Origin: Paralichthys olivaceus
Taxonomy: Eukaryota > Chordata > Actinopteri > Pleuronectiformes > Paralichthyidae
Direction: 5' to 3'
DNA length: 64,000 bases
Assembly: GCF_024713975.1 (NCBI RefSeq)
Contig: NC_091112.1
Location: forward strand, 2,712,001-2,776,000
This document shows positions 36,808 to 55,150 of the stretch, in pieces. Position 1 is the stretch's first letter. Each line of letters begins with the position of its first letter. Made by a program: the position numbers and the translations under genes. A model generated the notes under the pieces. That model had not been told where the DNA came from and did not search any database. It worked only from the letters and a program-made list of their open reading frames with translations.

Positions 36808-39800
36808 ATGGCAAAGGAAAAGATCCACATCAACATCGTGGTCATCGGCCATGTCGACTCCGGAAAGTCCACCACCACCGGGCACTTGATCTACAAGTGC
36901 GGAGGAATCGACAAGAGGACCATCGAGAAGTTCGAGAAGGAAGCTGCCGAGGTTTGTGTCAATCGAGAGTCTGAGTTTATAATCACATGAGGAGAATCAG
37001 TGAGTATTCAGAAAAGAGTGTCACTGATAACTGAGATCCGTGTAAAAGCGACACCTACTGTTGAAACATGTGCAACTGAAACACCCAGAACATATCCCTG
37101 TTATATCTTTTATACATCCATGTCGTATCCTATATAGATCTATGACATATCCCTGTTATACCCTATAGAAATCTATAACCTGTTATATCCACAACAGATG
37201 GGCAAAGGCTCCTTCAAGTACGCCTGGGTGCTGGACAAACTGAAGGCCGAGCGTGAGCGTGGTATCACCATCGACATCGCTCTGTGGAAGTTTGAGACTG
37301 ACAAGTACCATGTGACCATCATTGACGCTCCTGGACACAGGGACTTCATCAAGAACATGATCACTGGAACCTCTCAGGTAAAGACACACATTTTATTCTA
37401 ATGTGTAGACTTGTCGTTTTTAGGTTTGTGCATCAGACCTCAAGTAGATATGAACTTACCAGGATCAAGTCCAGAGGTTTACTGGATACGCGTTTGTTTC
37501 CATATCACCACCAATACAAGAAATCTGTGTTTTATTGTTGTTTTATAGTTTACTTTATTGTCACATTATTCTCTTGAGAAAACTAAAAGTACCAAAAATG
37601 ATGATTTCACAATGGAGTTGACAAATGGTCTACCTACCTGTGGTCATGGACATTCTTGCCACTGCTTCCTTTGAGCCGCTTCGATCAGCGGCAGGTGAGT
37701 CACAGCAGAGACCAGGAAGTTCACCAGGATGTCCTCAGAGTCCACAGAGACTGAAACAGGTAGTGGTGGTAGTACCTGTGTGACAGGTGATGTTACGGTG
37801 CTGTCATCAAAACATGAGAAAGGGGACAGGACATTTGTTATCAGGATTTTCTTAATGAGAGCGAACCAGAGAGCCATTGAATTTCCTGCCTCGGTTTCTA
37901 TTTCTCATTTGTTTTCAGTCCGCAGCCTGAAAGGAAAAGCATTTGCAAAGCAAAGTTTAAAATCTGTTATTGCAAAACTTAAAAAATATTTAGTCTACAG
38001 AAATGTAGAAATTCATAAAACCTCTCCCTCTTTAGGCTGACTGTGCCGTGCTGATTGTTGCTGCTGGTGTTGGTGAGTTCGAGGCTGGTATCTCCAAGAA
38101 CGGCCAGACCCGTGAGCACGCCCTGCTGGCTTACACCCTCGGTGTGAAGCAGCTCATCGTTGGTGTCAACAAGATGGACTCCACTGAGCCCCCTTACAGT
38201 GAGAAGCGTTTTGAAGAGGTCAAGAAAGAAGTTGGCAACTTCCTCAAGAAAACCGGCTACAATCCGAAATCTATTGCCTTCGTCCCCATCTCTGGTTGGC
38301 ACGGAGACAACATGATCGAAACCAGTGAAAAGGTGAGAACATTTTCAACTTGTTTTAACACGATTATTGTGAACATGAACTGATTTCTCACAAACATCCG
38401 TAGATGAGCTGGTACAAGGGATGGTCGATTGAGCGCAAGGAGGGTAATGCCAATGGAACCACACTGAAAGATGCTCTGGACTCCATCCTGCCACCTTCCC
38501 GCCCCACTGACAAGCCCCTCCGTGTGCCCCTGCAGGACGTCTACAAAATCGGAGGTAAACAGATTCAGGTGTTTCTGTCAAAGCTAAATCCTGACAGCTA
38601 CAGCCTCTCCTCACTATACATCACATAAGTGTTTGCAACACAAGGAACTTGATGCACATTGTCTCAGCTGCAACTCGTATTCATTTTACTATCAGAACTC
38701 TTCCCCTGATGAAAGACTTTCATTTTGTAAGAAACTCAGGTATATTAAAAACACATGGCCTCCTGCCTCCTGCTCTCTCTCAGGTATTGGAACTGTCCCC
38801 GTCGGTCGTGTTGAGACTGGTATCCTGAAGCCTGGTATGATCGTCACTTTTGCTCCCCCCAACCTGACCACTGAGGTCAAGACAGTGGAGATGCACCACG
38901 AGTCTCTGGCTGAAGCCATACCCGGTGACAACGTTGGCTTTAACGTCAAGAACGTGTCTATAAAAGACATCCGTCGAGGTTTCGTGGCGGGCAACAGCAA
39001 GAATGACCCTCCGATGGGAGCTGCGAGCTTCAAAGCCCAGGTGATTCAAATGGGAAAAGAGAAAACGAATGTAAAAAAGGAATAAGTGAAGGGAGGGACT
39101 GGGTTTGGGTTTTTAAATGTGAAAATCTTTTGAAAAGCTTCTTTTCACAATTTACTAAAGATATAAACATATTGATCACAGAGACGACTCAGCTGCAGGA
39201 ACAAAAACAGAACCTGAATTCAGGTTTCATTTTTATTATGAAAATAAGAATCATGACTCTTTTGTATATATTTATAATACTGACATTTTTTACTTAAAGA
39301 CCCTTTTCACACATAGATTTGTTTAACTCCATGTTCTGTGTCATAGGATTTAACTGTACCGATCCTACATTTATTATAATTAATCAAACACATTACAAAC
39401 TGAAAAGAACTGAATCTACATGTTAATGTCCTCTTATGATATATTAATGAAGGTTGCTAGATACCCAACAAAATGTGATTTCATTGTATCTCTGAAGAGC
39501 TGAATGGATGATTCCATCTGAGGTGATAACATGTGTCACCCTCTGTTAGCCACCAGCAGGAACTACAACAAAGTTCACCTTTGCTTAAGATGATTAGCGA
39601 CTCTTGCCACCATTTCTAACTGCACATAAACTTCAAAATTTCAGGTCATCATCCTGAACCACCCCGGCCAGATCAGCGATGGTTACAGCCCAGTGCTGGA
39701 TTGCCACACAGCTCACATCGCCTGCAAATTCAAGGAACTTGTGGAGAAGATCGACCGTCGGTCTGGTAAGAAGCTCGAAGATGCCCCCAAGTCTGTGAAG

Positions 39801-40303
39801 TCTGGAGATGCTGCCATTGTCCTCATGGTGCCTTCAAAACCCATGGTTGTTGAGGCCTTCAGCGATTATGCCCCACTGGGTGAGTACAATTATGTTTTTT
39901 CTTGATTTCTGCATTTGTGGCCTGTGGACTTAAAAATTACATTTCATTTGCGTTCACTGCTCAGAGACCAACTGAGACTTCACACACTTTCACATTCATT
40001 CCTTACATCTAGTGGCATTTCAACTACTGTAAATGCAATCTGGTCATCGCGGGTTACACGTGTCCAACCAATGTAGACACACAAAATCCACTCTGCGTCC
40101 ATTGTGTTCTATGTGTGTCATGAGCAGGTTAATTCACTGAATTCTGAATTCTGTTTGTCTCTTCTCTGCTCCGTCTCTTTCTCGCAGGTCGCTTTGCTGT
40201 GCGAGACATGAAGCAAACCGTGGCCGTCGGTGTCATCAAGTCCGTCGAGAAGAAGGTCCCCACCTCTGCAAAGATCACCAAGTCTGCACAGAAGGCTAAA
40301 TGA
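36808..40303 (+). CDS. eef1a1: Translation elongation factor 1-alpha, copy A
   Basis: Seven coding exons: 36808-36951, 37198-37377, 38036-38332, 38404-38554, 38784-39040, 39645-39879, 40188-40303; 459 aa. eEF1A brings aminoacyl-tRNA to the ribosomal A site as the GTP complex. GTPase motifs are intact: GHVDSGKS (14-21), DAPGH (91-95), NKMD (153-156) and SGW (194-196). Domain 2 starts near residue 240 and domain 3 near 330. Glu301 and Glu374, the known ethanolamine-phosphoglycerol sites, are present, as is Lys55. Oddities: residue 2 is Ala instead of the conserved Gly, so the known N-terminal Gly methylation cannot occur in the usual form. The C terminus is three residues shorter than copy C and ends [10 protein letters not shown]. 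The 3'UTR before AATAAA is only about 30 nt. Intron 2 is nearly identical to that of copy C, but the 3' half and flank match copy B. All exons are in frame, so it looks functional. Paralogue naming within eef1a1 is uncertain. Confidence 0.95.
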
Positions 40304-54800: not shown

Positions 54801-55150
54801 AACAGGGATATGTCATAGATCTATATAGGATACGACATGGATGTATAAAAGATATAACAGGGATATGGTCTGGGTGTTTCAGTTGCACATGTTTCAACAG
54901 TAGGTGTCGCTTTTACACGGATCTCAGTTATCAGTGACACTCTTTTCTGAATACTCACTGATTCTCCTCATGTGATTATAAACTCAGACTCTCGATTGAC
55001 ACAAACCTCGGCAGCTTCCTTCTCGAACTTCTCGATGGTTCTCTTGTCGATTCCTCCGCACTTGTAGATCAAGTGCCCGGTGGTGGTGGACTTTCCGGAG
55101 TCGACATGGCCGATGACCACGATGTTGATGTGGATCTTTTCTTTTCCCAT
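51804..55150 (-). CDS. eef1a1: Translation elongation factor 1-alpha, copy C
   Basis: Seven coding exons: complement of 51804-51928, 52701-52935, 53424-53680, 53945-54095, 54203-54499, 54581-54760, 55007-55150; 462 aa, exactly the human EEF1A1 length. It keeps the consensus [20 protein letters not shown] start, all GTPase motifs, Lys55, Lys165, Lys318, Glu301 and Glu374, and a lysine-rich end ([13 protein letters not shown]). It looks like the canonical somatic form. Exon 5 reads [20 protein letters not shown], different from the MSWYKGW...NANGTT version of the other three copies. Intron 2 is near-identical to copy A intron 2, and intron 3 to copy D intron 3. Promoter with TATA and TOP start at 56.8 kb, leader intron about 1.6 kb. 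The 3'UTR carries a conserved block. Confidence 0.96.

Follow-up and report, generated by a model that had tools for sequence, protein, structure and literature searches.

How can two genes that face in opposite directions, and that have diverged in most of their coding exons, carry nearly the same intron? This question is raised by a cluster of eEF1A genes in the window, by which we mean the whole 64-kb stretch of DNA analysed here. Four intact eEF1A genes lie within 23 kb of it, A on the plus strand and the other three (B, C and D) on the minus strand. According to the gene models each has seven coding exons (exons 2-8), GT-AG introns and 459-462 codons: A at 36808-40303 (459 residues, with a single terminal stop), B at 45017-48160 (459 residues), C at 51804-55150 (462 residues) and D at 57401-59755 (461 residues). 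We find that the four copies have recently exchanged stretches of DNA, including one whole intron that passed between copies of opposite orientation. Gene conversion is a known process; the eEF1A array is a new and unusually readable case of it.

An array of four eEF1A genes

Two of the four genes, A and C, were submitted to the NCBIfam EF-1_alpha model (TIGR00483) and scored 723 and 734 bits, respectively, against a cut-off of 540. The best solved relative of A is eEF1A1 (5lzs). Similarity places the probable promoter and non-coding exon 1 of A at 35546-35759 (plus strand), a region that resembles its counterpart in B and an orphan copy described below; the corresponding region of B lies at 50741-50961 (minus strand). 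With this exon the array genes would have eight exons and seven introns, like the zebrafish eEF1A genes as presented in the main text of PMC6997148. Residue 2 is Ala in A (36811-36813) and Val in B (48155-48157), Gly being replaced in both, and codon 165 of B encodes Thr instead of Lys; residues 2 and 165 of eEF1A are presumably methylation sites. Upstream of the array, four of five submitted reading frames matched PITH, Elongin A and BACK/Kelch domains. A repeat with a 30-bp period (32157-32486) sits within an open frame at 31949-32521.

Genome-wide look-ups were made in one 588-Mb assembly of 25 contigs, that of this fish alone. Additional eEF1A genes are indicated by strong exon matches on C8, C14 and C17, and weaker matches were found on C5, C19 and C21. 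The gene on C17 (G000:C17:1319500-1328000) is one that we take to be 42Sp50-like. It is not the nearest relative of the array copies, which share 287-298 of 421 residues with it, versus 354-382 with the genes on C8 and C14.

Several genes of this one protein family per fish are also what the main texts of teleost studies describe: five eEF1A genes in Senegalese sole (PMC2270864), four genes on four chromosomes in zebrafish (eef1a1l1/1a/1b/2; PMC6997148), eEF1A1a and 1b in tilapia (PMC5339811), and 42Sp50 in spotted scat (PMC9403048). The word 'tandem' is absent from the main texts of these four papers, and 'gene conversion' from that of the sole paper. Among the matches listed in our literature search, which were judged by title and opening of the abstract and came mostly from outside the subscription journals, none reports conversion in fish eEF1A clusters.

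Intron 2 of genes A and C

Intron 2 of A (36952-37197, plus strand) and intron 2 of C (54761-55006, minus strand) are both 246 bp long and differ at a single position (99.6% identity). The gene models confirm to the base the limits that the original prediction had given for both introns, and its estimate of about one differing base agrees with our count. At the same place B carries a 114-bp intron (47903-48016, minus strand) and D one of 537 bp. That the intron of B is unrelated, as had been proposed, is supported by alignment: homology to the intron of A was rejected, as 80 of 500 shuffled sequences score as high, and what the two share are splice-site ends. A genome search located the 246-bp intron at two places in the assembly, in A and in C, and thus no third donor is known there; the 114-bp intron of B occurs at one.

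How far does the likeness extend? A and C align without gaps from 36775 to 37387 (55183-54571 in C), with 13 mismatches in 613 positions. Identity is 97.9% in exon 2 and 97.2% in exon 3, the two exons that flank the intron, and 89.2%, 81.5%, 82.5%, 79.1% and 87.1% in exons 4, 5, 6, 7 and 8; exons 4 and 5 have indeed diverged, as predicted. In blastn comparisons intron 4 of the two genes is bridged only with gaps, intron 5 matches only at its two ends, and introns 6 and 7 give no match beyond the exon edges.

Could simple descent account for this pattern, with intron 2 strongly constrained in A and C and replaced in B and D? The identity itself is all that speaks for such a history. In exons 5-7 the synonymous distance between A and C is 0.55-0.65. 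With the lowest A-C rate seen locally (0.07), one difference or fewer in 246 positions still has a probability of only 6e-7, and the observed divergence of the intron is 0.41% (95% interval 0.01-2.2%). As many as 245 of 246 bases would have to be under constraint. The introns of B and D at this place are unrelated, and the search for a structured RNA in intron 2 returned no Rfam family at gathering score within the window. We therefore consider constrained descent scarcely credible. Simple descent fails for this intron, as had been argued from the sequence, and a recent conversion between loci explains it far better than any other reading.

We ran our own permutation tests in the style of GENECONV. 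When exon 2, intron 2 and exons 3-7 are joined (166 mismatches in 1510 sites), the longest mismatch-free run between A and C covers 208 sites and was matched in none of 20,000 permutations. Within exon 2, intron 2 and exon 3 alone (9 mismatches in 570 sites) the same run is ordinary (3292 of 20,000), because this whole block is similar, and a run test on coding sites gave no significant A-C result (1549 of 10,000). Divergence is clearly lower in the intron (1 difference in 246) than at synonymous sites in the adjoining exons (about 4.5 in 68.7; p 0.002), so that either the converted tract ends inside the exons or the exons have changed again since.

Segment trees were computed from the exons of the four copies, a design that intron 2 cannot enter, and they are to be read as descriptive, since the segment limits were picked after the list of sites had been seen. 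For exons 4b-5 and 6-7 every one of the 15 possible trees that lacks an A+B pair is rejected at 0.05 (AU test), and the favoured topology is ((A,B),D),C. For exons 2-4a, 14 of the 15 trees are acceptable and A+B is not rejected. Of the two groupings that had been expected, A with B is thus recovered in exons 4b-7; exons 2-4a do not group A with C. It is the intron that carries the A-C signal, because exons 2, 3 and 4a (the 5' half of exon 4) have been homogenised among all four copies.

At its widest the C-like tract in A runs from 36817 to 37298 on the plus strand (55141-54660 of C, minus strand) and is bounded by A-C differences at 36816 and 37299; it would begin at 36919 if the difference at 36918 is original. 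Of this tract only the intron is strictly provable, since the exon parts are common to B as well. At 36806 and 36816 C is the odd one out and A, B and D agree, so that these sites mark a left limit only. Outside the tract A matches B and not C, upstream from 36691 to about 36765 and downstream at 37388-37510. As the likely recipient, A keeps its own, B-like sequence on both sides, at the end of intron 1 and at the start of intron 3. Near-identity nested in this way bears out the idea that inverted copies underwent conversion very recently, and we hold it very probable that the shared intron 2 arose by recent non-allelic gene conversion without crossover.

Did the intron travel from C to A? Because the C-like piece of A lies between a B-like end of intron 1 and a B-like start of intron 3, we prefer C to A, a direction that we hold to be probable and that makes C the likely donor. 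Were A the donor and C the recipient, the 114-bp intron of B would be the newcomer. Just upstream of the ATG, the final 20 or so bases of C look like those of A and B and unlike those of D, and the words at the ends of intron 2, GTTTGT and CCACAACAG, are common to A, B and C and missing in D; C must therefore have taken up A/B-type sequence here at some time. Against this, the B-like sequence on both sides of the C-like stretch of A speaks for A as recipient, and the reversed course requires an extra change of the intron of B, which leaves it doubtful.

An error of assembly or polishing that wrote the sequence of C into A is conceivable, given that the copies are close enough for reads to be mis-mapped. 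The window, however, is free of N bases. The short tract has a single private difference of its own and is bordered by non-C bases on either side within one contig; an artefact would have had to switch precisely twice within a few hundred bp. We judge it very unlikely.

What is demonstrated is that the identity is local, that it is nested in A, that homology flanks it on both sides and that the intron was found at two places in the genome. Conversion from C to A might have proceeded as follows. After breakage of the DNA within intron 2 of A or next to it, the inverted copy C, which lies some 17.6 kb away, would have served as repair template, with exons 2 and 3 (97-98% identical between A and C) providing homology on both sides. 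Repair synthesis would then have brought the intron of C into A and displaced a B-like intron of 114 bp, the probable former state of A. This would be one event within a frequently converting array, in which exons 2-4a have been homogenised among the four copies.

In the human gamma-globin pair, part of the gene including an intron is near-identical through conversion and the rest has diverged. Genes A and C resemble that pair in that a part with its intron was made alike and the remainder diverged. Unlike the gamma-globins, which form a direct tandem, the eEF1A partners lie in inverted orientation some 17.6 kb from each other, and the intron that would have been replaced is unrelated.

Exons and introns of genes A and B

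Beyond intron 2, introns 3-7 of A had been described as matching B, and the rest of A as following B. This is correct for introns 4-7, which together show 5 differences in 1212 positions. It does not extend to intron 3, which measures 658 bp in A and 438 bp in B and is alike only at both ends, nor to exons 4-6 (48 differences in 705), nor to exons 2-4a, which are mixed among the four copies.

From exon 4 to the 3' flank, A (38036-40842, plus strand) aligns with B (44478-47284, minus strand) over 2807 bp without a gap. Of the 58 differences, 48 fall in exons 4-6. Counted separately, exons 4, 5, 6, 7 and 8 differ at 31/297, 7/151, 10/257, 2/235 and 0/116 positions, introns 4, 5, 6 and 7 at 0/71, 3/229, 2/604 and 0/308, and the 3' flank at 3/539. 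The contrast between exons 4-8 (50/1056) and introns 4-7 with the flank (8/1751) is strong (p 1.6e-14). Runs of identity span the introns and end in or near exons, for example at 38318-38424, 38560-38772 and 39129-39565. Introns and flank have diverged by 0.46% (interval 0.20-0.90%), which is close to the 0.41% between intron 2 of A and C. Both exchanges are thus recent and may be close in time, as far as a divergence without a clock can tell. On the conversion reading, A and B share a further recent tract, or several of them, reaching from intron 4 to about 540 bp beyond the gene.

Why should the exons of two genes be more diverged than their introns? CpG transitions do account for several of the changes private to B, but decay of CpG sites alone was rejected as the cause, since non-CpG sites show an equal contrast (35/948 vs 5/1707; p 1.2e-11). 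Positive selection alone was likewise rejected, because synonymous sites are raised too (about 22/165 in exons 4-6 vs 5/1212 in introns 4-7; p 7e-17). Selection on amino acids does not itself raise synonymous change, and exchange is therefore needed to explain the contrast. Over 1263 coding sites A and B differ by a dN of 0.035 and a dS of 0.093, and the genes on C8 and C14 by 0.021 and 1.12, which indicates that the array proteins evolve faster than the dispersed ones. In the first 421 residues the proteins of A and B differ at 28 positions, 13 of which fall within residues 157-188.

We favour the reading that the introns of A and B may have been homogenised by conversion and that conversions over exons 4-6 did not persist. 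A precedent is found in the L/M opsins of gibbons. According to that study, the neighbouring duplicates diverge more in exons than in introns, the introns being homogenised by conversion while the differing exons persist (PMC3213168). As in primate L/M opsins, exon divergence between A and B, synonymous sites included, exceeds intron divergence. The A-B pair differs from the opsins in being inverted, in encoding a translation factor and in coming from one genome, and any divergence in function between the two genes is hypothetical. We tentatively propose, as a possibility still short of probable, an opsin-like array in which conversion would overwrite the introns and flanks of A and B, selection would purge conversions that erase the differences between their proteins, and distinct elongation factors would be maintained.

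Alternatively, one long recent conversion could have homogenised the 3' part of the two genes, and exons 4-6 could later have been re-patched from copies that are now lost. Three relics described below show lost units, and exon 4a of A has several states in common with C or D against B, as this course would predict. Yet a search of the assembly found no donor for exon 4b of A (five matches in all, the best other one being B at 84%), and A and B each have private states, which makes later re-patching rather unlikely. The 42Sp50-like locus on C17 was tried as donor of exon 4b and rejected, only some of the private states being common to both. V170, F177 and L178 of A match that locus; the surrounding DNA does not.

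Probable lost units and exchange across the array

Three additional units, whole or in part, seem once to have existed. The first relic (44119-44482, minus strand) preserves the final codons and the 3' UTR of a lost C-type gene, and the A-like 3' flank of B abuts it directly. The A-like sequence of B ends at 44478, exactly at the start of this relic, and the junction word AGTCT is common to A (40838-40842), B (44478-44482) and C (51831-51835); a deletion via this 5-bp microhomology could explain the join. A second relic at 42230-42999 (minus strand) is a copy of 50504-51315 of B and probably represents an orphan promoter with non-coding exon 1; no gene body for it was found in the window. The third, at 34443-34738 (plus strand) and upstream of the promoter of A, is a second copy of the 3' flank of A (40795-41107), with 249 of 320 aligned columns identical. 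This flank occurs at two places in the assembly and a third was not found. A transposon is thus unlikely, and the copy is probably the relic of a lost unit.

Is the closeness of the 5' exons a matter of constraint? Averaged over the six pairs within the array, synonymous differences are 0.056 in exon 2, 0.101 in exon 3 and 0.156 in exon 4a, and 0.27-0.34 in exons 4b-7; between the array and the genes on C8, C14 and C17 they are 0.44-0.73 in every segment. Since the 5' exons are close inside the array and distant from the dispersed genes, they were homogenised, not constrained. Coding-site runs, uncorrected for the six pairs, point to possible further exchanges between B and C (sites 106-256; 1/10,000), B and D (661-698; 1/10,000), A and B (1018-1167; 8/10,000) and A and D (568-642; 13/10,000), and weakly between C and D (909-969; 116/10,000).

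Gene D is itself mixed. In late exon 4, intron 4 and exon 5 it resembles A and B (58278-58822, minus strand, vs 38027-38558 of A), with 7 differences in 71 positions and 9 gap columns in intron 4, and its exon 6 is nearer to C. The A/B-like part of D is probably another, older exchange. Intron 3 is nearly the same in C (54500-54580) and D (58814-58894, both minus strand), with 3 differences in 81 positions and no gap, far closer than the remaining introns of these two genes.

eEF1A serves widely as a marker in phylogenetics and as a reference gene in qPCR. Where copies exchange pieces, gene trees, primers and the assignment of copies can mislead. Whether conversion is able to move an unrelated intron from one copy to another of opposite orientation can be tested cleanly on this natural example, as can the question whether selection protects the exons of so conserved a protein against homogenisation. 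We consider the mosaic of the array and the contrast between exons and introns of A and B to be of more interest than the conversion of intron 2 between A and C. If the opsin-like reading is true, this fish would keep distinct elongation factors within an array that is constantly being homogenised.
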